38,868 nt of DNA from Nocardioidaceae bacterium (lineage in GTDB: Bacteria > Actinomycetota > Actinomycetes > Propionibacteriales > Nocardioidaceae): NCBI GenBank assembly GCA_013696975.1, contig JACCXO010000024.1:1-38868 (forward strand), given 5' to 3'. The position numbers and the translations under genes are program-made. The notes under the pieces are model-generated. The model was not told the DNA's origin. It saw nothing but the letters and a program-made list of their open reading frames with translations, and searched no databases. This document shows, one piece after another, positions 1,104 through 14,429 of this stretch. The stretch's first letter is position 1. Every line of letters begins with the position of its first letter.

Positions 1104-1394
1104 CTAGACGCGGTCCGGGCCTCCTCCGGGGGCAGAAACCTCGCGTTTATCGGCGTACATGGCGTTGAGCAGGTCGAGCGAATCCAAAACGGAGCGTGCC
1201 TCGGACTCGTCCATCCGCGATAAGGCGAAACCCATGTGCACCAGCACCCAGTCACCAATCTGTGGCAGACCAGCAGCATCACCGATGAGCATCGCGGCCG
1301 AGACGTGCTGGTGCTGCCCTTGCACGTCGACGAGCATTCTTTGCCGAAGGAGGTCAACGGGTTCGACAACGCTGCCGGGCATTCCTAGGCACAT
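1104..1394 (-). CDS. hypC: Hydrogenase maturation chaperone HypC/HupF
   Basis: This is a 96-residue protein starting MCLGMPG, the HypC signature in which the cysteine after the initiator Met is essential. HypC, with HypD, carries the Fe(CN)2CO unit and delivers it to the immature [NiFe]-hydrogenase large subunit in the cytoplasm. The conserved core GDWVLVHMGFALSRMDESEA follows, and the length is usual for the family. I chose the ATG at 1394 over an in-frame start at 1421 because Cys2 must be near the N-terminus and a GAGAGGG precedes it. It is divergent from the CooC-like pair (99 nt between starts), so the two may share a control region. No other hyp genes are in the window. Confidence 0.93.
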   Translation of the reverse strand: MCLGMPGSVVEPVDLLRQRMLVDVQGQHQHVSAAMLIGDAAGLPQIGDWVLVHMGFALSRMDESEARSVLDSLDLLNAMYADKREVSAPGGGPDRV

Positions 1395-1493
1395 CGCCGG
1401 CCCTCTCAAAATCGCGGTCACACCTATTTAGATGCGGCCTTATCCTAGGGCGAACCAAAGCCGCAGCCACCGTTGGGCGGGTAGGGTCGGCCC

Positions 1494-2252
1494 ATGCGGG
1501 TCGCTTTCGTGGGCAAGGGCGGTGCTGGCAAGTCGTCTCTCGCGGGTACTTTCGCACGTGTGCTGGCGGGCACCGGTGAGCGAGTGCTAGCGCTGGACTC
1601 CGACCCGATGCCGGGCCTGGCCTTCTCTTTGGGGATCGACCGCGTCGACGAAGGTTTGCCGGATGAGACGGTTGAGGAGTACAACGACGACGGCCATCGC
1701 CGATTTCGGCTGAGGCAGGGCCTAACAGGAGTTGGCGCCGTCGAGCGATACGCCGTCCAGGGTCCTGACGGGGTGCACTTCCTTCAACTTGGGAAAGCCC
1801 ACGGTCAGCGGTGGGACAACACTCGCCAGCACTTCGGCTTCCAGCATGTCCTGGACGACCTCCCCGGGGACGGCTGGAGCATCGTCGGGGACCTGCCCGG
1901 GGGAACCAGGCAGCCGTTCATGACCTGGGGGCGGTACGCGGACACGTTCCTCGTTATCGTCGAACCCACCCCCGCCTCATTGCTGACCGGTCGTCGCCTA
2001 GCCCGCTTGGCCGCGACGGCCCAGGCGCCGCGCGTGGTCGTGGTCGCCAACAAGGTCCGGGAATCCGAGGAAGTCGAGCGGGTCGGCGAACGCACCGGGC
2101 TGCGAGTCCTCGGCGCCGTCCCGTTCGACCCCGAACTGGAAACGGCGGATCGGCTAGGCCGGGCCGTGCTCGACCACGACCCTCAAGGTCAGACCGCCAC
2201 GGCGGTACGATCGCTGATGGATGTTCTTCTGACTGGAATGGAGCCCTCATGA
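1494..2252 (+). CDS. CooC/MinD-like P-loop ATPase 1, no CxC motif
   Basis: A 252-residue deviant Walker A ATPase of the ParA/MinD/CooC class: FVGKGGAGKSS at residues 6-15 and LALDSDPMPGL near 33-42. CooC proteins use ATP-driven dimerisation to help load nickel into carbon monoxide dehydrogenase. Where the paralogues in this locus have GCxC followed by D(M/F)EA, this one has no cysteine (LGKAHGQRWDNT at about 99-110) and DLPGGTRQPF. It has therefore lost the usual dimer-interface metal site. It overlaps the next ATPase by ATGA, so the two are probably translated together. A heterodimer with that protein is an inference. Confidence is high for the family and low for the exact role. Confidence 0.85.
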   Translation: MRVAFVGKGGAGKSSLAGTFARVLAGTGERVLALDSDPMPGLAFSLGIDRVDEGLPDETVEEYNDDGHRRFRLRQGLTGVGAVERYAVQGPDGVHFLQLGKAHGQRWDNTRQHFGFQHVLDDLPGDGWSIVGDLPGGTRQPFMTWGRYADTFLVIVEPTPASLLTGRRLARLAATAQAPRVVVVANKVRESEEVERVGERTGLRVLGAVPFDPELETADRLGRAVLDHDPQGQTATAVRSLMDVLLTGMEPS

Positions 2253-2989
2253 AGATCGCTGTCGTTGGCAAGGGTGGATCGGGAAAAACGACCACGTCGG
2301 CCGTTCTGGCTCGTACTTTTGCACGGCAAGGACGGGCGACGTTGGCCCTGGACTGCGACACCAATCCCAACCTCGGCATCTCGCTGGGACTGGGTGAGGA
2401 GGTGACGGAGAGCCTGATCGCGCTGCGCGATGCGGTCGACACCGGCGAGCAGGAACATGCGTCGAGCGCGGACGACCTGGTACGGCGCTTCGGCGTCGAG
2501 GCGCCCGACGGGGTGCATCTGGCGGTCGTCTCCGCGATCCAAAACCCGGAGCCGGGTTGCCCTTGATGCGGTATCTCACCTGAGCAGTTGCTCGGGCAGC
2601 TGGCACGTCCCGGTACCATCGTCGTTGCTGACTTCGAGGCCGGTCTCGGCACCGTCATGCGGCTCGACGGCCGTCCGGTGGACGTCGTCGTCGTGGTCGT
2701 GGAGCCGACCGCGAAGTCACTTGAAGTTGGCCGCCGCGCCGCCGATCTCGTCCGCGAGAGCGGCCTGGGCCGACTGGTCATTTCAGCCAACCGGGTCCGT
2801 GACGAGGACGACGCGGCGCGGGTCGCCGCCGCCTTCCCTGGACTCGACCTGCTCCTTGTGCCGGACGACCCAGCGATCCTCGCGGCCGAGCGAAGCGGCG
2901 TGGCCCCGCTCGACGCTGCACCGGAGGCGCCTGGCGTGCGGGCACTCGTCAGCCTCGCCAAGGGGCTTTTGGGTCCGGCGGGCGCTTGA
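2249..2989 (+). CDS. CooC-like P-loop ATPase 2, candidate selenoprotein (in-frame UGA at codon 106)
   Basis: From the ATG at 2249 the frame encodes a CooC-like ATPase (VVGKGGSGKTTT at 5-16, ALDCDTNPNLG near 34-44). It is interrupted only by TGA at 2564-2566, then continues in the same frame for 140 codons to the stop at 2987-2989. Read through, the protein is 246 residues, the length of its paralogues. The TGA sits in EPGC-P-TGA-CG (Cys104, position 106, Cys107). The paralogues read AGCTCSGH and EGCLCSAH there, and CooC has GCVCPEH. The position of the second metal-binding Cys is thus encoded by UGA. Conserved sequence continues on both sides (VVADFEAGLG, VVVEPTAKSLEVGRR, ISANRVRDEDDA), and a SECIS-like hairpin follows. 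I infer selenocysteine insertion. The alternative is a nonsense mutation Cys to stop. No selA, selB, selD or tRNA-Sec gene is in the window. Confidence 0.8.
2579..2596 (+). promoter_or_regulatory. Candidate bacterial SECIS hairpin
   Basis: Beginning 12 nt after the in-frame TGA, CCTGAGC pairs with GCTCGGG (7 bp, one T-G wobble) around an AGTT loop. Bacterial SECIS elements lie inside the coding region directly after the UGA, have a short apical loop with a G in its first two positions, and sit about 11 nt after the UGA in the E. coli fdhF case. All three properties are met. A 7-bp hairpin in GC-rich DNA can arise by chance, so the strength of the call comes from its position relative to the UGA and the conserved Cys site. 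Confidence 0.65.
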
Positions 2990-3021
2990 CCAGCGGCAAT
3001 CTCAGGCGAGGCCCGCAGTGA

Positions 3022-3054
3022 TCGATAACCTCACGCGTCTGGAAGCTTTATCGA
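3022..3054. repeat. Inverted repeat TCGATAA/TTATCGA between convergent ATPase genes
   Basis: TCGATAA at 3022-3028 and TTATCGA at 3048-3054 are exact inverted copies 19 nt apart in the 68-nt gap between two convergent genes. It could be a weak bidirectional terminator, but there is no T-tract and the spacer is long. Confidence 0.3.
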
Positions 3055-3057
3055 CGA

Positions 3058-3837
3058 CTAGTCTGCGACGGCGAAGTCGACCGCTGCGAGCACGGAGTCC
3101 AGGGCCGCCTGAACCTCCCTCGTCATGGGCGTCATGCCTACCAACCCAGCACGGTCGTCCGCCGCGACTCGCGCGTCGTACGGCAGAACGCCTGCCAACT
3201 CAATGCCCTCGGCCGCCAGTGCGTCTGTGAAGAACTGGACGTCCTCCGGAGTCCGCGCTTTGTTGCCCACCGCAAGTACATGCGGAATGCCCAGCTCGGC
3301 AGCGAGGGCGGATGTCCGTGCGGCCGTCAGGACCGACTTGCGGGTCGGCTCGCAGACGACGACCAGCACGTCAGCGTAGGCAAGCGTGCCGCCTGAGCGG
3401 CTGAGGTGCTCCAGCCCGGCCTCCATGTCGACGAGCGTCACGTCGACCTCGACGAGGGCATCTGCGAGCAGGTTGCGGACTGTTGCATGGCCGCTACAGG
3501 TGCACCCGGCGCCGGCCTCGGTAACCCGGATCGCCGAGAGTAGCGTCGGGCCAGCAGGAGTGGAGCGGCCGTAGTCGCTGACGAGAGCGTCAGCCGACGG
3601 CGCGGGGCCCGAGCCGACGAGGACGGCTCGCGGCAACACTGGCACCGCCTCAGTGTCGGCCAACGACAAGCCGAGTGACAGCCCAAGATTGGGGTTGGAG
3701 TCGGTGTCGATGGCCACGACCCGCTTGCCCCGCTCGCTGTAGGAGCGCGCGAGCAAGCCTGAGACGGTGGTCTTTCCCACGCCGCCCTTGCCGACGACGC
3801 CAAGCTTCAAGCCGACCGACAATGCAGCGGTGCTCAT
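3058..3837 (-). CDS. CooC-like P-loop ATPase 3 (GCTC motif)
   Basis: A 259-residue protein starting MSTAALSVG at the ATG at 3837, with GGAG 8 nt upstream. The Walker A is VVGKGGVGKTTVS (14-26), followed by AIDTDSNPNLGLSLGL (42-57). The CooC metal site is intact: AGAGCTCSGHATV with Cys112 and Cys114, then VDMEAGLEHLSR. This is the closest of the four to authentic CooC, the ATP-dependent nickel-insertion factor of CO dehydrogenase. No CO dehydrogenase gene is present here, so within this locus its target may be the hydrogenase or an Fe-S/Ni insertion step. It is convergent with ATPase 2 and divergent from the small membrane-protein operon at 3941, with a 103-nt gap that must hold both promoters. 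Confidence 0.88.
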   Translation of the reverse strand: MSTAALSVGLKLGVVGKGGVGKTTVSGLLARSYSERGKRVVAIDTDSNPNLGLSLGLSLADTEAVPVLPRAVLVGSGPAPSADALVSDYGRSTPAGPTLLSAIRVTEAGAGCTCSGHATVRNLLADALVEVDVTLVDMEAGLEHLSRSGGTLAYADVLVVVCEPTRKSVLTAARTSALAAELGIPHVLAVGNKARTPEDVQFFTDALAAEGIELAGVLPYDARVAADDRAGLVGMTPMTREVQAALDSVLAAVDFAVAD

Positions 3838-3940
3838 GCCTGCTCCTTCATGGGTTGCGTACGATGGTACTAGCGTGGAGCACCTACCGGGGGCACACTG
3901 TCTCATACGCCGTCGAACCTCGACATGGATGGAGTCGCAG

Positions 3941-4198
3941 ATGGTTATTCTCTGGACCGCTAGCGCCATAGGGCTACTCGTCGTTGCCCCGCTCGTGATC
4001 ATGTTGGCAACCTATGTGATCCGGCCGGCGTTGGAGTGCGCGCGCTACGCCGACGACATCCTCGAGCACGGTGTCGGGATCACCGCCGCATTGGAACCGG
4101 TGCCTGCGCTCGTGACGACGCGCGACCTCGTCGCCGAGGTGACCCAGAATGCCGTTTCCTACGTGGGCGCTCTCCGGCGCCTTGTCGCCCACTCATAG
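3941..4198 (+). CDS. Small one-helix membrane protein, set A1
   Basis: An 85-residue protein: an N-terminal hydrophobic helix (about residues 5-27), then a soluble tail beginning RPALECARYADDIL. The start ATG at 3941 has GGAG 8 nt upstream, and an in-frame ATG at 3929 lacks one. The tail resembles the first small membrane protein of the second set at 12014, with similar placing of an A-x-x-IL motif and a later V-x-T segment, although identity is low. It opens a run with the next three genes. A role as membrane anchor or hydrogenase accessory subunit is inferred from context only; I do not recognise a named family. Confidence 0.7.
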   Translation: MVILWTASAIGLLVVAPLVIMLATYVIRPALECARYADDILEHGVGITAALEPVPALVTTRDLVAEVTQNAVSYVGALRRLVAHS

Positions 4199-4237
4199 CG
4201 TCGAAGTCCTAGCACAAAACACTAAAAGGGAGCGCAC

Positions 4238-4504
4238 TTGTCCGCAGCCGCCATCACCGCAATCGTCGTGACAGGTGTGCTTGTCGCCGCCTTAGCCTTT
4301 TACCTCATTTGGGTCGTGATCATCCTCCGCCGCCTCACCGACACGTTGGGCAAGGTCGTGTTCGGGGTCGGCTCCATCGCCCATCGCGTGCAGCCGATCG
4401 GCCCGCTGGTCGATGAGATCAATGGCGATCTTGGCGGCGTCGCCGATGCGTTGGAGGCGCTCGGACAGGACCTCGATGGGCAGCAGCAGGCCCGCGCATC
4501 ATGA
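4238..4504 (+). CDS. Small one-helix membrane protein, set A2
   Basis: An 88-residue protein from a TTG start at 4238 with AAGGGAG seven nt upstream. One hydrophobic helix (about 5-28) is followed by an amphipathic tail. The segment LRRLTDTLGKVVFGVGSI...IGPLVDEIN.DLGGVADAL matches the protein at 12558 (LRR...LGKVAFGVRAI...IGPSVLSIN.QLTGVAAAL). The two are clear paralogues within the same hydrogenase locus. It overlaps the following DUF1059 gene by ATGA. The function is not known; a membrane-tethering or electron-relay scaffold role for hydrogenase is inferred from conservation in both clusters. It contains no cysteines or histidine pairs suggesting a redox centre. Confidence 0.78.
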   Translation: MSAAAITAIVVTGVLVAALAFYLIWVVIILRRLTDTLGKVVFGVGSIAHRVQPIGPLVDEINGDLGGVADALEALGQDLDGQQQARAS

Positions 4505-4707
4505 CCTCCCGTGGTAGTGACAATGCTGTGCGTCTCGAGTTCCGCTGTCAGGACGTCGGTGTCGCGTGCAAGCAGATCACCCAGGCTGAGACTGCTGACG
4601 ACCTGGTCAAGGCAGTGGCGGCGCACACCAGGGCCGAGCACGGTGTCGAGTTGAACGCAACCCTGATCGACTATGCCCTCACCAAGGTCCGCCCTACCGG
4701 TGGCTGA
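4501..4707 (+). CDS. DUF1059 family small protein
   Basis: A 68-residue protein with the DUF1059 layout: a short beta segment with a conserved pair of cysteines (FRCQDVGVACKQ), an ETADDLV helix and the terminal AVAAHTRAEHG segment. DUF1059 proteins are small cytoplasmic proteins of unknown function, common in actinobacteria and archaea. The CxxxxxxC and the histidines could bind a metal, but that is speculation. It overlaps its upstream neighbour by 4 nt and its downstream neighbour by about 8 nt, so it belongs to the same operon. Confidence 0.8.
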   Translation: MTSRGSDNAVRLEFRCQDVGVACKQITQAETADDLVKAVAAHTRAEHGVELNATLIDYALTKVRPTGG

Positions 4708-5275
4708 GCGTTACGCGACGTCCGATGTTGACCCCATCGACGAGTCAACCGACGCTTCACTCGCCGAGCTCGGCCCCTTGTTGGACCGGCTCGAGGAGAT
4801 CTTAGGCGAGGTCGAGGACCTCGATGAGAGCGTCCGCGACACCGTTTTCGAGCTTCTCGACGGGGTGGACGCGCTGCACCGGCTGGCGATCACGCGCCTC
4901 TCGGAGGTCGTCGGTGACGTCGAGCCGCTGCGCCGGGCGGACCCCGCTGTGGCCTGGCTGCTGGAGGCATACGGCGTTGGGGTGGACGACTCTGCTGCCG
5001 CATCGGCTGCGCTCGATCAGATCCGCCCCTACCTGCACGAGCATGGCGGCGAGGTCGAGGTGCTGAGCGTCGAGCACGGAGTGGTACGGGTCCAGCTCAC
5101 GGGTGCCTGCTCCGGGTGTACCGCAGCCGCGGTGACGCTGCGGGACGGCGTGGAGGAGGCGCTGCGCGAAGGGCTGCCCGGGTTCGTCGCGATGGACGTC
5201 GCCCCCGACGGCGGTGCGCCAGCCCATCCGCCGCCGACCCAGGTGCTGCTCCAGATCACGCCCCGGCCGGTCTGA
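4700..5275 (+). CDS. NifU C-terminal-domain Fe-S scaffold protein
   Basis: The C-terminal half is a NifU-like domain: LDQIRPYLHEHGGEVEVLSVEHG, then GACSGCTAAAVTLRDGVEEAL, with the CxxC that holds a transferable [4Fe-4S] cluster. The N-terminal 100 residues are helical and acidic (LLDRLEEILGEVEDLDESV). Such scaffolds are often found with high-affinity actinobacterial hydrogenases, where they probably feed clusters to the small subunit. I use the GTG at 4700, which overlaps the DUF1059 stop by 8 nt. An ATG at 4673 is in frame but has no ribosome site and would overlap by 35 nt. Its 3' end is convergent with the protease gene (16 nt apart). Confidence 0.87.
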   Translation: MAERYATSDVDPIDESTDASLAELGPLLDRLEEILGEVEDLDESVRDTVFELLDGVDALHRLAITRLSEVVGDVEPLRRADPAVAWLLEAYGVGVDDSAAASAALDQIRPYLHEHGGEVEVLSVEHGVVRVQLTGACSGCTAAAVTLRDGVEEALREGLPGFVAMDVAPDGGAPAHPPPTQVLLQITPRPV

Positions 5276-5291
5276 CCTGCCGATGGCGCAG

Positions 5292-5789
5292 TCAGGTCGC
5301 GGGATCGGCGTGGTCGGCGAGCAGGCGGCGTATCTCCCGAACGGCCACCGGGACTGCCCTGCTCGTCGTCTCCGACAGGCCCTCGCGGGGCTCTTGGGTG
5401 TCAGTCGTCTGAACACCGACGATGAGCGTCGTCTCGGGCAGCACACCCAGGCCGAGGGCCATCATCAATGCGCGAGCAGGAGTTGCGAGGTGCATGTCGG
5501 CCAACTCATCGCGGCGCCGATCGGCGCTGAGCGTCGACACGTCGAGCACGTCGGGCCGCTGCACCAGGACCGCACCGGCTGGACGGCCAAGGTCGACGGC
5601 GTCGACGATCAACAGTATTTTCACGCCACCCGCAAGCAGCTCCTGTACAAGTCTGATCCCTCCGATACCGATCTCGAGCACCCGGGTGCCTGCGGGCAGT
5701 GGCTCGGCCAGCAGTTGCTCGGCGATGACGACGCCGACGCCGTCGTCCGCGCGCAGGACGTTGCCAAAGCAGGCCACGAGCACGGTCAT
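5292..5789 (-). CDS. [NiFe]-hydrogenase maturation endopeptidase (HyaD/HybD family)
   Basis: A 165-residue protein beginning MTVLVACFGNVLRADDGVGV, the family opening. The later IVDAVDLGRPAG and DMHLATPARAL carry the Asp and His that, with the early acidic residue, bind the nickel of the precursor. The enzyme removes the C-terminal tail of the large subunit after nickel insertion. The ATG at 5789 is chosen because homology starts there; upstream codons are unlike the family. It is divergent from the TPR gene with only 19 nt between starts. Its substrate is presumably the large subunit at 8612-10513, the only one in the window. Contrast it with the altered homologue at 7843-8595. Confidence 0.92.
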   Translation of the reverse strand: MTVLVACFGNVLRADDGVGVVIAEQLLAEPLPAGTRVLEIGIGGIRLVQELLAGGVKILLIVDAVDLGRPAGAVLVQRPDVLDVSTLSADRRRDELADMHLATPARALMMALGLGVLPETTLIVGVQTTDTQEPREGLSETTSRAVPVAVREIRRLLADHADPAT

Positions 5790-5808
5790 GGAGGAAGGGT
5801 AGGTCTCG

Positions 5809-7065
5809 GTGTCCGCCGATGAGCAGGAGGGCGCCAGCGTTACCGATGAGGCCACAGCCGCGCTCGAGACCCGACTGGCCAAGCATCCGCCCGGTCGCTA
5901 CCCCGCCCAGCACGCAACGGCAGCCTTCCACCTTGGTACGACGCACCTGCAGCGGGGTCGGGTCGCAGAGGCTCTGCAGGTCCTCCGTGCCGCAGTCGAG
6001 ATCTTCGGGCAGCTGGGGATGCGCCTGGAAGAAGCGAAGGCGCTGACGATGCAGGGAGTCGCCTTCCGCGAAGCCGGGCGCATCGAACTGGCCCGGCAGG
6101 AATTCGAGCGTGCGGCCTCCGCCTTCCATGAGCTGGAACAACCAGTCGAGGAAGCGGCCGCGTCATACGATCTCGGACTTGTGCTTTGGGAACAGGGGGA
6201 TGCAGCCGAGGCACAGGATGCGATGCGGCGTGCCGGTGAGCTGTTCCTGCGGGCCGGTTACCTCGCGCAGGCCGGATCCGCGGCCCGTGAACAGGGCACA
6301 GCCCTGCTCACGTCGGGTGAGGCGGGGTCCGCACTGCCATTACTGCGTGAGGCGGCCAGCCTGGCGGAACGTGCCGGCGACCTGCCGGGCCTGGGCGCTG
6401 CCGCTAACGCCCTCGGTCTGGCACATCTGGCCTCCGACGACAGCGCAGCTGCGGTAGTGGCACTTTCCCGCGCTGTCGGCGCCTTTCCCCGCAGCATGCG
6501 TCCCGCCGAGCACGCGATGGCCAAGTCCAACCTTGCGGTCGCGCATGAGCAGGCCGGCAACCAGGCTCGAGCCCGGCTTACGGCTCGCCAGGCATTGGCA
6601 TTGCCGGGCGCCGACCCACAGGTACACGCGCAGGCGCAGCAGTTGCTGGACCGGTTGTCAGGCGCGACGCAGGGCGATCTGCATATAGTCCTAGATGCGG
6701 AGCCGCGGGAGCGCTGGCCGGCGATCGTGCGTGAGGAGGCCGTGCGTTGGTGCGAGGCGAGTGCAGCCGAGCGATCGCAGGCCGTCTGTGGCTTCGTGGA
6801 TGGACTGCTGAATCGGCCAGCGGCGTCGTACGATCTGGCCGAAAGTCTGCTCGCAGTGCTACTCGAGCTGCCACCAGAGCCCTACGGCGAGCTGGTGACA
6901 GCGATCGTGCAAGCCACCGGAGGGCGAGCCGAAGAAGACAGCGAGCGAGTCCGGACCGTCGTCGGGTCGGCCATGGCTCGGTTCGCGATCCCTCAATGGC
7001 AGCGGCTCGCGAGCAGCCTCAACAGCGCTGCCAACGCGGCGGGACAGCCGGAGGGCTGGCGATGA
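5809..7065 (+). CDS. TPR-repeat protein of the hydrogenase locus
   Basis: 418 residues from a GTG at 5809. Residues about 40-290 are tandem tetratricopeptide-type helix pairs, for example ARQEFERAASAFHEL, AASYDLGLVLWEQGDAAEAQDAM and ALPLLREAASLAERAGDLPG. There is no signal peptide or membrane helix. The C-terminal 120 residues are a separate helical domain rich in E and R. TPR proteins are protein-protein adaptors, and one accompanies several high-affinity hydrogenase operons, so an assembly-platform role is likely but inferred. It overlaps the next gene by ATGA and is divergent from the protease. Confidence 0.8.
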   Translation: MSADEQEGASVTDEATAALETRLAKHPPGRYPAQHATAAFHLGTTHLQRGRVAEALQVLRAAVEIFGQLGMRLEEAKALTMQGVAFREAGRIELARQEFERAASAFHELEQPVEEAAASYDLGLVLWEQGDAAEAQDAMRRAGELFLRAGYLAQAGSAAREQGTALLTSGEAGSALPLLREAASLAERAGDLPGLGAAANALGLAHLASDDSAAAVVALSRAVGAFPRSMRPAEHAMAKSNLAVAHEQAGNQARARLTARQALALPGADPQVHAQAQQLLDRLSGATQGDLHIVLDAEPRERWPAIVREEAVRWCEASAAERSQAVCGFVDGLLNRPAASYDLAESLLAVLLELPPEPYGELVTAIVQATGGRAEEDSERVRTVVGSAMARFAIPQWQRLASSLNSAANAAGQPEGWR

Positions 7066-7832
7066 ACGGAGACCTTGGGGTTACGGAGGTATCGGCGGCG
7101 CTCGGAGACCGTCCAGTACGTGCGTACCTGGCGTTGCTGTCGACCGAAGCCGAGGCGATGGCGTGGGCTCGCACCGGAGCAGCCACCGGGGCGTTGGTGG
7201 TTGCGGACTACCAGGCTTCGCCGCGGGGACGCGGTGGTCTGCCGTGGACCGTACAGCCCGGTCGGGGACTCGGCTTCTCGCTGTTGGCGCGACCCGCCCT
7301 TCCCCCAGAACGCGAGGGATGGCCCTACGTTGCGGCGTCGCTCGCAGTCGCCGAGGTGATCGGTGACCACGCCGCGCTCGACTGGCCCGACACCGTGGTT
7401 GCGCCGGAGGGCGAGCCCGCGCTCGCGCGGCTGGGTTGCTACGTCGAGCTCGGCCCGGACCGAACCGACTGGGCGACCATCACCGTCCTCGTCGTGGACG
7501 CAGCGCCGCCGCGCGCCGCGCTGCTCCGTCAGCTCGTGGACGCGCTGGAGAACCGGCTCGACGCTGCGGCCGACACGGTGCTGTCGGTTTACCGTTCCCG
7601 CTGCATCACGCTCGGCCGTCAGGTGCGAGCTCGGATGATCCCGATGGGGTCCGGAGGTCACGAGATCAACGGCGAGGCCGTCGACGTGCTCGCCGACGGC
7701 GCACTGGTCGTGCTCACCGCCCAAGGAAACCGGGTGGCCGTTCCCCCACAGAACCTCGGGTTGCTCGAGGCGCCAACGGCACCGCCCGAACTACCCCGAG
7801 ACATCCGGAGGCGGCTCGAAGACCTGCATTAG
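7062..7832 (+). CDS. Biotin/lipoate-ligase-fold protein, active site altered
   Basis: A 256-residue protein. Residues 47-76 (VADYQASPRGRGGLPW ... GRGLGFSLLARP) match the biotin protein ligase core, where a GRGR-x-G-R-x-W loop binds biotinyl-AMP. The KWPND motif, whose Lys is catalytic in BirA, is DWPDTVV here (about 107-113), so the Lys is absent. The C-terminal part (GEAVDVLADGALVVLTAQGNRVAV) resembles the small SH3-like domain of BirA. There is no HTH. It may be a ligase for another substrate or a non-catalytic binder working with the TPR partner that overlaps it by 4 nt. The family call is good; a biotin ligase function is doubtful. Confidence 0.75.
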   Translation: MNGDLGVTEVSAALGDRPVRAYLALLSTEAEAMAWARTGAATGALVVADYQASPRGRGGLPWTVQPGRGLGFSLLARPALPPEREGWPYVAASLAVAEVIGDHAALDWPDTVVAPEGEPALARLGCYVELGPDRTDWATITVLVVDAAPPRAALLRQLVDALENRLDAAADTVLSVYRSRCITLGRQVRARMIPMGSGGHEINGEAVDVLADGALVVLTAQGNRVAVPPQNLGLLEAPTAPPELPRDIRRRLEDLH

Positions 7833-7842
7833 CGTGACGCCG

Positions 7843-8595
7843 TCAGCCTGGGACCGCCTCTACCGCCTGCAACCGGTCCAGCTCCTCGATCAAGCCCCAC
7901 CACAGCGCCCAGTCCCGATGATCCATCCCCTCGCTGCTCACGTCGCTGGCGATACGACTGCGCAGCCGATCACGGAAGGTGAAGGTTCGACCCCACCGCC
8001 CCTCCCGGTCCAGGTGCGACAGCTCGCCGAGTAGCTGGCACATGGCGGCCCGCGAAGTCGACGGCTGTAAGCGATCCCCCCCGACGAGCGGGCCGAGGTC
8101 GTTGACCAGACGCAACAACGGCGCCCGACGCAGCTCTGTGCGGACGAGGTCCAGGGCCACCCCGAGGCCAGCCTGCGCTGACTCAGTCAGCCCCTCGCCT
8201 GAGCTCGTCTTTTCCGGCTCTACCTCCACTGCGATCGTCCGACGCGGAAGCGCACCGAGGCCTGTCGCCACATCGACGATGAGGTCCAGATGGACATAAC
8301 CGGTGACGGCGTCCCCTACGGCAGCTTGCAGTTGCGGTGCGGTCAGCTGCGGTGGGTCGATACGTCGGCGCTCCACAGTGCCGGGGCGGCGGTCTCGTCG
8401 TACGGCACTGATGAGCACCAGCGTGTCGGGCCGGACATCCTGCAGCCGCTGGACCACGGCCACGGCGCCGTAGTGCAGCTCTTCTACGAGGACGTCTCTG
8501 CCGAGATCTTCAGGCTGCAGGCGCTCGATGGCGAGCCGACCGAGATCGAGGTCACTTTGAAAAAGCTCGCTGACGCCGCCCACCAAGACCGTCAT
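7843..8595 (-). CDS. Hydrogenase-maturation-protease-like protein with altered metal site
   Basis: 250 residues from the ATG at 8595, 16 nt after the large-subunit stop, so it is the third gene of the structural operon. The first about 160 residues follow the HyaD/HybD fold: MTVLVGG, then DTLVLISAVRRDRRPGTV and VHLDLIVDVATGLGALPRRTIAVEVEP. Relative to the canonical protease at 5292-5789, GN is GG, the DD-G-V-G segment becomes SDLDLG, and the Asp of VDAVD is Ser (ISAVR), while the His may remain. The 90-residue C-terminal extension is Trp- and Arg-rich and unique. It may be a pseudo-protease used as a chaperone or a structural partner of the large subunit. This is inference. Confidence 0.75.
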   Translation of the reverse strand: MTVLVGGVSELFQSDLDLGRLAIERLQPEDLGRDVLVEELHYGAVAVVQRLQDVRPDTLVLISAVRRDRRPGTVERRRIDPPQLTAPQLQAAVGDAVTGYVHLDLIVDVATGLGALPRRTIAVEVEPEKTSSGEGLTESAQAGLGVALDLVRTELRRAPLLRLVNDLGPLVGGDRLQPSTSRAAMCQLLGELSHLDREGRWGRTFTFRDRLRSRIASDVSSEGMDHRDWALWWGLIEELDRLQAVEAVPG

Positions 8596-8611
8596 TTGAC
8601 GCCTCGGCGGG

Positions 8612-10513
8612 TCAGTCGCCGCCACATGAGCAGGTGTTGACCTCGCGGGTGACCTCGCCGTCGCCGGTGTGCGCGTGCGTCGTGCATGGCATGCAGGGGT
8701 CGAAGCTGCGGATGGCCCGCAGCATGTCGATGCTGGTGAACTTCGCCGGGTCGGACAGATCTTCAATAATGGGGGTGTTCATCACGGCCTCCTCGTACGG
8801 GCCCGGCTGGCCCCACGGATCGCGGGGAGAGGCGTTGATCGTCGAGGGGGTGACGATCTGATAGTTCGTGATCTTGCCCTTGTCCATGACGAGGTGGTGC
8901 GTGAGCCAGCCGCGACCGGCTCCCCACCAGCCGACGCTGCGACGCTCATCTTGCGGGATCGCCTTCTCGATTTCCGTGGGTGTGAGAGTCGCGACCCGTC
9001 GCTCACCTTGTTGGAACAGCTTGTAGGCCTCGAACAGGCTCTCCAGGCCGACTAGCTGGCTGAACAGGTAGTGGTAGGCGCGACCCCGGTTGCGTTCGAA
9101 GGCGTTCCAACGCTCGGGCACGCGCCACTCGACCTCACGTTCGCCGATCTCCCCTTTGGGAATCAGGAAACGCATGCCGGACCCGTCGGCGGAGATGAAT
9201 TCGCTGGTCGGCATCTTCTGAGCTTTCGCCGTCATCAGCAGCCGTGAATAACAGCCAGCCTCGACGACCTGCCGGTCCCACCTCGGTGCGGTCGCCCAGG
9301 TGTATTTTTCCTTCCAGTCACGACTGCCGGGCTTTGGCAGGGTTCGCTTGTTCCAAGGGTGGTACGGCGAGATGGGGTTGCCGAGAGGATCGTTCGGATA
9401 GCGGCTCGTCTTCGACTCCTCGTAGTAGGAGTGCTCGATGAACTCCTCGAGGCCGATGTTCAAATCGGTGAGGCGAGTCGTGACAAGCTCCCCGTCCAAG
9501 ACAACTCCGGGCGTCGACCAGCGCTTCTCTCCCCAGGCGTTGCAGTTCTCATAGGTGGCGTCATAGGCGTAGGGGTCGTCCCAGTAGCCGGGGTCGATGT
9601 GGCTCGACGGCCGGTAGCCGACGAACTGGTAGCGCTCGTCGGCTTCGTAGAAGAAGGCGGGGATGTCGTCCCACACGGCCATCATCCGTTGGGCGTAGTC
9701 GAAGATTTGCCCCAGGCGGGAGTGGTACTCGTTGAGCGTCTGCAGGGTGAGTGTCGTAGAAACACCGCCGGGCACGACGTTTTGGGGGTGCGGGTACTTC
9801 CCCGTCAAGATCACCACCATCTCCCGCGACAGGCGGGTGAAATCCAATCCCTCACGGTAGAGGGCTCCCGTCAGCGGGTTGAGTGCCGTCATCAGGTCAG
9901 CCATGGTCTTGAAGCCATGAATGTGCTCACTCGGGCACTTCCACTGCTCGGCCTTCGGCCAAAGCTCGGGGTTGGAGGACTTGATGACCGATTCGGAGTA
10001 GTCCGGCCCCGCGAGCAGGTAGAGGTGCAAGGGGTTGTCGTAGCCCATCTCTGCGGCCTCGGTCATGTTCCGTACGACGGTGCCTAGCGGCGGTGGCTTG
10101 ATACCCATGGCTTGCTCGATGGCGTACGCCGCGCAGTGCGCGTGGACGCCTCCGCAGACGCCGCAAGCCCGCGACGAGACGAAGATGGCGTCGCGCGGGT
10201 CCCGACCCATGAGGATGACCTCGTAGCCGCGAAACAGCGTCGCCTGGGAGTGCGAGTCGAGGTAGGCCCCCTTTTCGAGGTCGGCGGTCACATGGACCGC
10301 GAGCGCGCCCGCAATGCGGGTCACCGGGTCCATGTTGAGGTCCTTGATGTGGCCGTTGCGGGCCACCAGCCGCTCGATTCGAGCGGTGCGTTCATCCTCG
10401 GTCATCCCGATGTCGGGCATCGCGACGGTGACGTCGTACGGGTTGGGGATGCCCCCGCGAAGGTTGGCGTTGCCTTGGGCGTCGAACTCGACCGGAAGGG
10501 TCTTGAAGCACAT
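8612..10513 (-). CDS. [NiFe]-hydrogenase large (catalytic) subunit
   Basis: 633 residues. The N-terminal Ni-Fe ligand motif is RACGVCGGVH (Cys117, Cys120) and the C-terminal motif DPCMPCTTH (Cys607, Cys610, His613), so all four cysteine ligands are Cys, not Sec. A 20-residue tail ending CSCGGD would be cleaved after His613 by the maturation protease. The layout (RGYEVILMGRDPRDA; HGFKTMADLMTALNPLTG) is most like group 1h and allied actinobacterial uptake hydrogenases, not the group 2a Huc type. Subgroup placement needs a tree. GAGGAG lies 8 nt before the ATG. It catalyses H2 oxidation with the adjacent small subunit, probably feeding electrons to the respiratory chain. Confidence 0.95.
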   Translation of the reverse strand: MCFKTLPVEFDAQGNANLRGGIPNPYDVTVAMPDIGMTEDERTARIERLVARNGHIKDLNMDPVTRIAGALAVHVTADLEKGAYLDSHSQATLFRGYEVILMGRDPRDAIFVSSRACGVCGGVHAHCAAYAIEQAMGIKPPPLGTVVRNMTEAAEMGYDNPLHLYLLAGPDYSESVIKSSNPELWPKAEQWKCPSEHIHGFKTMADLMTALNPLTGALYREGLDFTRLSREMVVILTGKYPHPQNVVPGGVSTTLTLQTLNEYHSRLGQIFDYAQRMMAVWDDIPAFFYEADERYQFVGYRPSSHIDPGYWDDPYAYDATYENCNAWGEKRWSTPGVVLDGELVTTRLTDLNIGLEEFIEHSYYEESKTSRYPNDPLGNPISPYHPWNKRTLPKPGSRDWKEKYTWATAPRWDRQVVEAGCYSRLLMTAKAQKMPTSEFISADGSGMRFLIPKGEIGEREVEWRVPERWNAFERNRGRAYHYLFSQLVGLESLFEAYKLFQQGERRVATLTPTEIEKAIPQDERRSVGWWGAGRGWLTHHLVMDKGKITNYQIVTPSTINASPRDPWGQPGPYEEAVMNTPIIEDLSDPAKFTSIDMLRAIRSFDPCMPCTTHAHTGDGEVTREVNTCSCGGD

Positions 10514-10535
10514 TGCGAATACTCCTCAGGTCAGG

Positions 10536-11900
10536 TCAGACGTTGGCACGGTCGCCGCGTGGGCTACCGCCGCTGGGACTCTCATCCGGCCGCTTACCCC
10601 AGACATCGGCGTCATGGCGGGCGGTGTCTCCGTGGCGACGGAGACGGTCGTAGAACTTGTGACCGACGTTGGACAGCCCGGACGGCTCGCTCCTTTCGCG
10701 TGAGTAGGCGCTGGGCGTCGCGCCCTGCTTGTCCCATCGCACCTCACGGTTGAGGTTGTTGTTGCTGAACTTGCGCAGCGGCCGGATCACGCTGCCGACC
10801 ATCCGCGAGACCGTCGTCGATGCCAGCGAGCCCGGTGGGCGGGAGTAGAACGGCGTGAACTTGTCAGGGAAGCCGGGCATGGTGCAGCCGATGCAGGCGC
10901 CGCCTGCGTTCATGCAGCCGCCGAGGCCCGCGATCGCGCCACGCGACGTGATGTTGCAGTTGACGACCGGCCCCCAGCAGCCGATCTCGACGAGGCACTC
11001 CGGGTCGCCGAACTCTTCGGCGAACGTTCCCTCCTCGTAGTAGGCCCCACGTACGCACCGACGGTGCACTGTCTCCCCGAACAACCACGCGGGACGGCCG
11101 AGCTCGTCGAACTCCGGCAGTGGACCGAAACCCTGCAGGAAGTACAGGACCGCCGCAACGGTCTCGGTGAAGTTGTCGCCGATCGGCGGGCAGCCGGGGA
11201 CGTTGACGACCGGCACACCGAGCACCGAGCGGTAATCCTTGCCGAGGAAGTCCATCAGGCTCATCGCACCTGTGGGGTTGCCCTCCGCCGAGGGAATGCC
11301 GCCCCACGTCGCGCACGTCCCAATGGCGATCATCGCTGCCGCGTTCGGGGCGAGCCTGGCTATCCACTCCGTCGAGCTGACCGGGCGTAGCTCACCGTCA
11401 GGACCCCACGGCTCCTCACCCGTCGACGACCAATAGCCACCCTGAAGGTGGGCGATCGTCTCGTCGGCGATCGAACCCTCGAGGATCACGACGTATGGCG
11501 CGTCCAACTTGCCGGCGACTGCCTGCTCGGCCGGCTGAAGATAGTACGGCCCGGACTCCATATTGATGACAGGGTGATGCAGAACCACCCGCGGCACCCC
11601 CGGGTGCGCCCCGAGCATCAGACTCTCCACCGAAGGAAGCGTCGCGCCGGTCACCGCCACGCTGCAGCCGTCGCAGCTCATCCCAGCGAACCAGAATGCG
11701 TGCACCTTCTCGAGCGGGCCGAAGCGCGTCGCACCGGTGGCGGTAGCTACCGGCGACAGCATGTCCTCGGTCATCGCGCCCGACGGCATCCCGAAGGCGC
11801 CCAGATGCGAGGTGTCGTGATATGTGTCGACCGGACCCAGCAGGCTGAGCAGCTGCTGCGCCGGGGTTTGTCGCTGCGACGTGCTCTGTCGATCGGCCAT
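10536..11900 (-). CDS. [NiFe]-hydrogenase small (Fe-S) subunit
   Basis: 454 residues from the ATG at 11900 (AGGAG upstream). The three-cluster ligand set is complete: MSCDGCSV (Cys76, Cys79), GTCATWGG and PGCPPIGDN for the proximal cluster; ETVHRRC, PEC and IGCWGP for the distal; and VVNC, GGCMNAGGACIGC for the medial and nearby cysteines. Group 1h proteins carry Asp in the first motif (LSCDGDSV), whereas this has Cys, so it is related to but distinct from 1h. There is no twin-arginine signal at the N-terminus, so the enzyme should face the cytoplasm. The C-terminal tail after IGC is long, basic and low in hydrophobic residues. It is 22 nt upstream of the large subunit. Confidence 0.94.
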   Translation of the reverse strand: MADRQSTSQRQTPAQQLLSLLGPVDTYHDTSHLGAFGMPSGAMTEDMLSPVATATGATRFGPLEKVHAFWFAGMSCDGCSVAVTGATLPSVESLMLGAHPGVPRVVLHHPVINMESGPYYLQPAEQAVAGKLDAPYVVILEGSIADETIAHLQGGYWSSTGEEPWGPDGELRPVSSTEWIARLAPNAAAMIAIGTCATWGGIPSAEGNPTGAMSLMDFLGKDYRSVLGVPVVNVPGCPPIGDNFTETVAAVLYFLQGFGPLPEFDELGRPAWLFGETVHRRCVRGAYYEEGTFAEEFGDPECLVEIGCWGPVVNCNITSRGAIAGLGGCMNAGGACIGCTMPGFPDKFTPFYSRPPGSLASTTVSRMVGSVIRPLRKFSNNNLNREVRWDKQGATPSAYSRERSEPSGLSNVGHKFYDRLRRHGDTARHDADVWGKRPDESPSGGSPRGDRANV

Positions 11901-11931
11901 CTGAACTCCTGTGGCATAATCCAAACACTTC

Positions 11932-11948
11932 TGTATGTGCACCATACA
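11932..11948. promoter_or_regulatory. Inverted repeat in the hydrogenase divergent control region
   Basis: TGTATG-TGCAC-CATACA is a perfect 6-bp inverted repeat with a 5-nt centre in the 113-nt gap between the small subunit (minus) and the operon at 12014 (plus). On the reverse strand it reads TGTATGGTGCACA, and a related direct copy TGTACGGTGCGGA occurs at 11967-11979. It fits an operator for a dimeric regulator such as the PadR encoded at 13234. This is inferred from position only. Confidence 0.45.
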
Positions 11949-12013
11949 CATAGCATCGAATCCAGGTGTACGGTGCGGACTGGAGCTCAGCACACACACA
12001 TCTTGGAGGGCCA

Positions 12014-13237: not shown

Positions 13238-13608
13238 GCACCAACCCCGTCGAGGAGTTCTCGGTCGGGATGCCACGCAACTACCTCCGGCCGTGTCTGC
13301 TGCTCCTACTGGCTGAGGGGACGTCTCACGGTTACGAGCTGCTCGACCAAGTCACCGCGCTGGGTTTGGACCGGGCGGACCCGGGGAGCCTCTACCGCTG
13401 CCTGCGAGCGATGGACGAGGAAGCCCTGGTCCACTCGTTCTGGGAGCCGTCCACCTCTGGTCCGGCCCGCCGTACCTATGCGTTGACCGACGAAGGACGA
13501 GAGTGGCTGCACGCTATCGCCGGGTCACTGGCGGAGGTTTCCCGCGCACTCGATGCTTACCACCGGCGCTATCAGAAGCTTGTCGAGCAGGATGAGCACG
13601 CCCGGTGA
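13234..13608 (+). CDS. PadR-family transcriptional regulator
   Basis: 124 residues. The winged-helix core LLLLAEGTSHGYELLDQV, DPGSLYRCLRAMDEEALV and RRTYALTDEGREWL is the PadR signature. A C-terminal helix (SRALDAYHRRYQKLVEQ) should make the dimer. PadR proteins usually repress a neighbouring operon until a small molecule binds, and here the likely target is the control region at 11901-12013. It has 4-nt overlaps with both flanking genes, so it would be autoregulated as part of the hydrogenase accessory operon. Confidence 0.88.
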   Translation: MSTNPVEEFSVGMPRNYLRPCLLLLLAEGTSHGYELLDQVTALGLDRADPGSLYRCLRAMDEEALVHSFWEPSTSGPARRTYALTDEGREWLHAIAGSLAEVSRALDAYHRRYQKLVEQDEHAR

Positions 13609-14429
13609 GGCTAGCCGTCGCGGGGAAGGGCGGTGCGGGCAAGACGACGATCAGCGCCACGTTCGCCCGGCTGGCCGCTCGTGCGGGGAACCCCGTCGTC
13701 GCGATTGACGCCGACGCCAACCCGAACCTGTCCACCGCGCTGGGTGTCCCGCCTGCAGTCGCCACGCGCCTCGGACCCGTGCCGCCGTCGCTGATCTCAC
13801 GTCGTCTCGGGGGTACGGGACTCACTGAACCTATCGACGCGGTGTTGGACCGTTATGCGCTCAGCGCGCCCGACGGTATCCGGCTGCTCGGGATGGGAGC
13901 ACCCGCCCACGCTGACGAGGGCTGTCTTTGTTCCGCACACGCGGTCGTGGCCTCGCTACTCGAGGATCTGGGCGGGGAGGACGACCGGCTGGTCATCGTT
14001 GACATGGAGGCCTCCCCCGAGCACTTCAGCCGTGGAACGGTCCGGCACGTCGACACCGTCTGTCTCGTCGCCGAGCCCTACTACCGCTCGCTCGAAACCG
14101 TCTGGCGCATGGGCGCGCTCGTCGCGGAGCTACCTGTCGGCCGAGTCGTCGTGGTCGCCAACAAGGTGCGCTCGGCGGAAGACCAGGAGGCCATCACGGA
14201 ATTCTGTGACCGTCATGCCTTCGAGCTCGCGGGGAGCGTCCCGTGGAGTGAGGAGGTGGTCGCCGCCGACCGGCAACGCGTCCCCCTGGTTGACTGGCCC
14301 GGCGCCACGCCCGTCGTCGCAGCTGTCGCGGAGCTGGTCGCCGTGCTCGCCGCCGCAGGCCCACTCCGGCAGGCCCACGCAGCCTCTAACAAGGCGAGCA
14401 CTGGCCCCACTTGCCAATCGCCGCGCTGA
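13605..14429 (+). CDS. CooC-like P-loop ATPase 4 (GCLC motif)
   Basis: 274 residues from a GTG at 13605 overlapping the padR stop. The Walker A is AVAGKGGAGKTTIS (4-17), then AIDADANPNLSTALG (33-47). The metal site is ADEGCLCSAHAVV with Cys107 and Cys109, followed by VDMEASPEHFSRG. It is a canonical CooC-type dimer-interface CxC protein, so probably a metallochaperone ATPase. The last 20 residues are an Ala/Ser/Thr-rich tail absent in the other three. It is the last gene of the plus-strand accessory operon beginning at 12014. Nickel or Fe-S delivery to hydrogenase is inferred. Confidence 0.88.
   Translation: MRLAVAGKGGAGKTTISATFARLAARAGNPVVAIDADANPNLSTALGVPPAVATRLGPVPPSLISRRLGGTGLTEPIDAVLDRYALSAPDGIRLLGMGAPAHADEGCLCSAHAVVASLLEDLGGEDDRLVIVDMEASPEHFSRGTVRHVDTVCLVAEPYYRSLETVWRMGALVAELPVGRVVVVANKVRSAEDQEAITEFCDRHAFELAGSVPWSEEVVAADRQRVPLVDWPGATPVVAAVAELVAVLAAAGPLRQAHAASNKASTGPTCQSPR

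Follow-up and report, generated by a model that had tools for sequence, protein, structure and literature searches.

The gene at positions 2249..2989 on the plus strand of the window (the whole stretch of 38,868 nt from a Nocardioidaceae bacterium that was analysed) very probably encodes a selenoprotein. From sequence comparison we assign a probability of about 0.92 to the view that its in-frame UGA (2564-2566) is read as selenocysteine (Sec) by means of a hairpin of the bacterial SECIS (bSECIS) type, and that the product is likely to be a metal chaperone acting together with a partner ATPase.

An in-frame stop codon shared by homologous genes

The reading frame of the gene runs from ATG 2249, which overlaps the stop codon of the gene upstream (ATGA), to TGA 2987-2989, and TGA 2564-2566 lies in this frame. 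With the UGA read through, the product is a CooC-type P-loop ATPase of 246 aa with the motif PGCP-U-CG. The UGA (plus strand) would be the codon for Sec at residue 106, and the codons TGC CCT TGA TGC (2558..2569, plus strand) would specify a C-x-U metal site that comprises C104 and U106, plus C107.

A scan of 84,980 species genomes yielded 46 loci, and more homologues were collected by family and class searches. The aligned codons give CxU by TGA in 8 genes (including the window gene), CxU by TAG in 5, UxU with two TGAs in 20 and Cys in 7. A stop codon is present at the Sec site in 33 homologues, 28 with TGA and 5 with TAG. The TAG genes (loci L017, L023, L024, L046 and L101) are from Geodermatophilus, Modestobacter, Blastococcus (two) and one further Geodermatophilaceae genome. 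In the Cys homologues the frame is open straight through the aligned stop position, and the Sec codon of the window gene aligns with a Cys (CPUCG versus CPCCG and CMCCG).

Comparison of the window gene with seven relatives gave dN/dS values of 0.11-0.19 for the region 3′ of the stop codon, at an amino acid identity of 72-81%. By this measure the region past the UGA is under purifying selection, so that the downstream half of the protein appears to be translated and selected. Such selection argues against a true stop codon or a sequencing error, which would leave a pseudogene, or a 105-aa fragment followed by re-initiation at TTG 2588. Translation table 11 does list UGA as a stop, the downstream ORF (2588-2989) begins with TTG, and the assembly of the window is an incomplete draft (1.88 Mb in 150 contigs, 82.5% complete). 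However, the stop occurs at the same codon in 33 genes from several orders, isolate genomes included, and the identity of this codon follows the anticodon of tRNA-Sec, as shown below. Re-initiation would also lose the metal motif, and the TTG itself is located within loop and stem of the hairpin. We consider a true stop or a sequencing error extremely improbable.

In the genome of the window, a tRNA-Sec with anticodon tca scores 76.6 bits, SelA 390 bits and SelB 269 bits. All three are above the curated cut-offs, and selD, selC, selA and selB are arranged in a row on contig 13. SelD of this genome (L001:337-1353) is of the Cys type (GGGCACK) and is no selenoprotein. At least one of SelA and tRNA-Sec could be located in 32 of the 33 Sec genomes, versus 2 of the 7 Cys genomes (Fisher p 2e-4). 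Neither was found in the genomes of L029 (1.6 Mb MAG) and L048 (1.8 Mb MAG), probably due to incomplete assemblies. The anticodon of tRNA-Sec was CUA in all five TAG genomes (tRNA loci L096, L091, L094, L090 and L105) and UCA in each of the 23 TGA genomes where this tRNA was found (Fisher p 1e-5; all five TAG genomes are of one family). Stop codon and anticodon hence agree in 28 of 28 genomes where the tRNA was found. The p-values are only indicative and overstate independence, since the counts come from related sequences. The CUA tRNA was assigned to tRNA-Pyl by ARAGORN and to tRNA-Sec by Rfam (four submitted sequences, and the search that found the fifth).

Hairpins are able to stimulate readthrough, and the hairpin described below could act merely in this way, with the stop codon read as another residue (Cys, Trp or a near-cognate one). 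Cys in the homologues would be compatible with insertion of Cys. Nevertheless, TAG is in every case accompanied by a UAG-reading tRNA-Sec in the genome (5/5), and the genomes of most Cys homologues lack both SelA and tRNA-Sec, which makes insertion of another residue very improbable. Considering the codon, the machinery and the anticodon, we conclude from these comparisons that the in-frame UGA is almost certainly decoded as Sec.

The CUA tRNA-Sec of the Geodermatophilaceae is already known (Mukai et al. 2016, as cited in PMC5330540). In PMC5330540, an FDH, a UGSC-motif protein and AhpC are reported as UAG-Sec genes of this family. Our TAG genes resemble them in the use of UAG for Sec and in coming from the same family. 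The CooC-type ATPase would be an additional UAG-Sec gene that is not named there.

The hairpin 3′ of the UGA

The initial annotation had placed a SECIS-like hairpin at 2579-2596, and we found it there as described: on the plus strand the stem strands CCTGAGC (2579-2585) and GCTCGGG (2590-2596) form 7 bp, of which one is U-G, and enclose the loop AGTT (2586-2589). The stem starts 12 nt and the loop 19 nt after the UGA. The agreement with the rules for bacterial SECIS elements was also confirmed, with a loop of 4 nt, G as second loop base and 19 nt between UGA and loop; bSECISearch limits the loop to 3-14 nt and the distance to 16-37 nt. Like the bSECIS of E. coli fdhF, the hairpin is part of the coding region just past the UGA and has a short apical loop with G-U within the usual reach. 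With the U of the UGA numbered as 1, its loop reads A23 G24 U25 U26; G and U are thus at 24-25, whereas the loop G and U of fdhF are at 23-24.

Folding of 2564-2606 resulted in an MFE of −13.7 kcal/mol with a z value of −0.59, and 53 of 200 shuffles folded equally well. Hairpins that obey the rules and have at least the same stability were within reach of 28 of the 227 codons of the gene, and of 29 of the 502 TGAs on the plus strand of the window. According to the initial annotation, equal hairpins at random places in the gene would speak against a SECIS. Literally, such hairpins do occur (28/227 codons), yet since the gene is GC-rich their occurrence has no power to decide. Considering the z value and the many equal hairpins, we rejected the folding of one sequence as proof of a SECIS. 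Thermodynamics alone is insufficient for this reading, and the comparison of homologues decides.

Inner stem and loop (GAGC-AGTT-GCTC, the inner 4 bp) are unchanged in 33 of 33 stop-codon genes, TAG genes included, versus 2 of 7 Cys genes. The codons GAG CAG TTG CTC are invariant among the first 27 Sec genes collected; outside the hairpin site, TTG makes up 42 of the 563 Leu codons of these genes (about 7%). The compensatory changes that the initial annotation suggested looking for are present in two pairs of the outer stem. Among 30 distinct sequences, the outer pair 16-33 is GC in 15, CG in 11 and other in 4, and the third pair from outside, 18-31, is CG in 12, UG in 10 and UA in 8. The five stem pairs that never vary are uninformative by themselves. 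In the same 30 sequences 98.1% of the stem cells are paired, versus 21-50% in register-slid controls, and the covariation score of the stem was reached by no shuffle. As judged from these alignments, the conservation of the hairpin across homologues is far beyond chance. Loss of the stem in Cys homologues was observed in part: it is broken in 5 of 7 and kept in 2 of 7 (L016 and L110). These two may represent recent changes from Sec to Cys. No Sec machinery was found in the L016 genome, and SelA is present in the L110 genome.

In the UxU genes of the Acidimicrobiia two UGAs are located one codon apart, with a single hairpin 3′ of both (L027, L028, L030-L043, L107-L109 and L111). The UGAs are 25 and 19 nt from the loop, both inside the usual reach. 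Unlike in known bSECIS elements, a single hairpin would here serve two UGAs.

The compensatory changes, the mostly broken stem in Cys genes, the presence of Sec machinery and the match of TAG with CUA support the SECIS interpretation. We infer that SelB, with GTP and Sec-tRNA, would bind to the hairpin 2579-2596 and direct the insertion of Sec at UGA 2564.

The predicted metal site and its gene neighbourhood

The top PDB sequence match of the selenoprotein is CooC1 (E 2.6e-11). Its AF2 model (pLDDT 88.9) aligned to 3kje with a Z of 21.1 and 24% identity over 230 residues, and MinD, FlhG and NifH score as high. A scan against NCBIfam (June 2026) returned only MinD/ParA-like matches below the cut-offs. 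The deviant Walker A motif GKGGxGKTT is present as GKGGSGKTT, with G7, K8, G9, G10, G12, K13 and T14 invariant. C104 and C106 (Sec in the window gene) do not vary among 29 diverse CooC-type proteins. They align with C112 and C114 of CooC1; at the interface of the CooC1 dimer these two residues hold Zn, and they compete for Ni (PMC6006190). By its sequence the selenoprotein is a CooC-type P-loop ATPase, with the UGA at the second Cys of the invariant CxC.

It thus shares the deviant Walker A, the fold and the place of CxC with CooC1 of Carboxydothermus hydrogenoformans (PDB 3KJE/3KJG/3KJH/3KJI). Unlike CooC1 it has Sec at the second Cys, and Sec occupies both positions in Acidimicrobiia and the first one in a paralogue of Thermoleophilia. 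Further differences are an extra Cys next to Sec, a partner gene without CxC directly upstream, and a neighbourhood that in actinomycetes contains a hydrogenase and not CODH.

The partner ATPase (1494..2252, plus strand), also a P-loop protein of this superfamily, lacks CxC, and its gene overlaps the selenoprotein gene. A match to it was found in most loci, 31 of those examined, and nearly always directly upstream of the Sec or Cys ATPase. HypC (1104..1421, minus strand) precedes this pair, and a paralogous CooC-type ATPase with an ordinary CxC (GCTCS; 3058..3834, minus strand) follows. Further downstream are genes for a DUF1059 protein (4501..4707, plus strand), a NifU-domain protein (4673..5275, plus strand), a HycI/HybD hydrogenase maturation protease (5292..5882, minus strand) and a TPR protein (5809..7065, plus strand). 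The large subunit of a [NiFe]-hydrogenase (8612..10513, minus strand; best PDB match 5AA5, actinobacterial-type) adjoins the small subunit (10536..11999, minus strand). The cluster also contains two small proteins, and no BirA homologue was seen among the window ORFs scanned.

For the cluster of group 1m [NiFe]-hydrogenases a peptidase, an FeS assembly protein, a CooC-type ATPase, TPR and DUF1059 proteins and small membrane proteins are described, with 5AA5 as best model for the hydrogenase (PMC9561532). The gene content of 1104-11999 is nearly the same, and the subunits are likewise adjacent with 5AA5 as best match. From gene content and the 5AA5 match we infer a group 1m-like hydrogenase. 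PMC9561532 mentions neither a UGA nor Sec for the CooC-type ATPase, and no word beginning with "selen" occurs there.

In Acidimicrobiia (L151) the ATPase pair is located 3′ of an ABC transporter of the Opp/Dpp/Nik family, with DUF1059 downstream. Its assignment as a nickel importer is unsupported, as the nickel cut-offs were not reached. Within the 19 kb examined no hydrogenase subunits were found at L151 or at L150, and a tie to hydrogenase for every member of the family is not supported. At L150 (Thermoleophilia), UxC genes are within about 15 kb of genes for the RuBisCO large subunit, a CbbX-like AAA ATPase and other Calvin-cycle proteins.

Sec may also be real in a protein that is no nickel chaperone. 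CxU(C) could then be a site for redox reactions or selenide handling, or it could bind a metal other than nickel or, as NifH-like relatives do, an Fe-S cluster. We regard this as a real, though lesser, possibility. The equal structural scores of NifH, MinD and ApbC, which have the same fold, the third thiol (C107) next to Sec, and the Acidimicrobiia locus lacking a hydrogenase nearby (19 kb examined, L151) are in agreement with it, and known selenoproteins are mostly redox proteins (PMC13188914). On the other hand, CooC1 is the best match in CxC position and sequence, and the actinomycete genes are situated within a hydrogenase maturation cluster. The transporter upstream in Acidimicrobiia also belongs to the Opp/Dpp/Nik family, though below the nickel cut-offs.

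By analogy to CooC1, the protein would form a dimer with a selenolate-thiolate metal site between its subunits, to which each subunit contributes Sec106 and C104. Binding and hydrolysis of ATP would switch between capture and release of the metal, which is probably nickel for the hydrogenase. Most likely, selenoprotein and partner ATPase would act as an ATP-switched chaperone for nickel (or another metal) in maturation of the group 1m-like [NiFe]-hydrogenase; that the neighbouring hydrogenase is the client appears fairly probable.

A second, probably Sec-containing line and the relation to known selenoproteins

The window encodes a fourth CooC-type ATPase (13605..14429, plus strand) with Cys in its motif GCLCS. 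Members of this paralogue line in Thermoleophilia have TGA at the first Cys of CxC (GULCS). A hairpin GCYAC-(5 nt)-GTRGC begins 15 nt past this TGA and is kept in 19 of 19 Sec members; its inner 5 bp are kept in 0 of 10 Cys members. These UxC genes were found in Thermoleophilia and in one Acidimicrobiia genome (L048, L119, L121-L130, L134-L136, L138, L142, L147 and L148; L119 is on the minus strand, with the motif near 2873 of the reverse strand). In genome G778 (L119) the UxC gene adjoins a UxU gene.

A tree of 96 ATPases requires no fewer than 14 changes of motif state (CxC, CxU, CxO (TAG), UxC or UxU), and in it UxC falls into a different well-supported clade from UxU/CxU. The separate clades and the number of changes therefore favour more than one gain of Sec at the shared metal site, in a tree that does not separate gain from loss. 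We propose, with somewhat less than an even chance of being right, that CxU, UxU and UxC reflect repeated recruitment of Sec, with up to four selenolates at the UxU dimer site, two UGAs served by one hairpin, and a role in nickel handling instead of redox chemistry.

Like the CobW-related and other metal-binding selenoproteins (PMC13188914), the CooC-type ATPase would have Sec in a proposed metal-handling NTPase or metal-binding protein, and it differs from the CobW-related selenoprotein (NF041053, UxxC) in its family. A CooC/MinD/ParA-type family and a UxU motif are absent from the 119 families in Table 1 of this review of May 2026. We did not find a CooC-type selenoprotein in the openly readable Sec literature. 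SECIS and Sec insertion are thus known in kind, while the family and the double-Sec metal motif appear to be new.

Our data would add to the 2026 inventory of 119 a selenoprotein family that is a metal-chaperone ATPase and not a thiol oxidoreductase. Standard annotation would truncate such genes at UGA or UAG. The switch from UGA to UAG together with the tRNA-Sec anticodon is a natural experiment on Sec decoding, and the UxU genes allow testing whether one SECIS serves two close UGAs. In soil actinobacteria, selenium would be tied to the gene cluster for maturation of a hydrogenase that presumably acts on atmospheric H2. If the repeated recruitment of Sec is true, selenium would tune nickel handling, and not redox catalysis, in bacteria with relatives that scavenge H2 from air.
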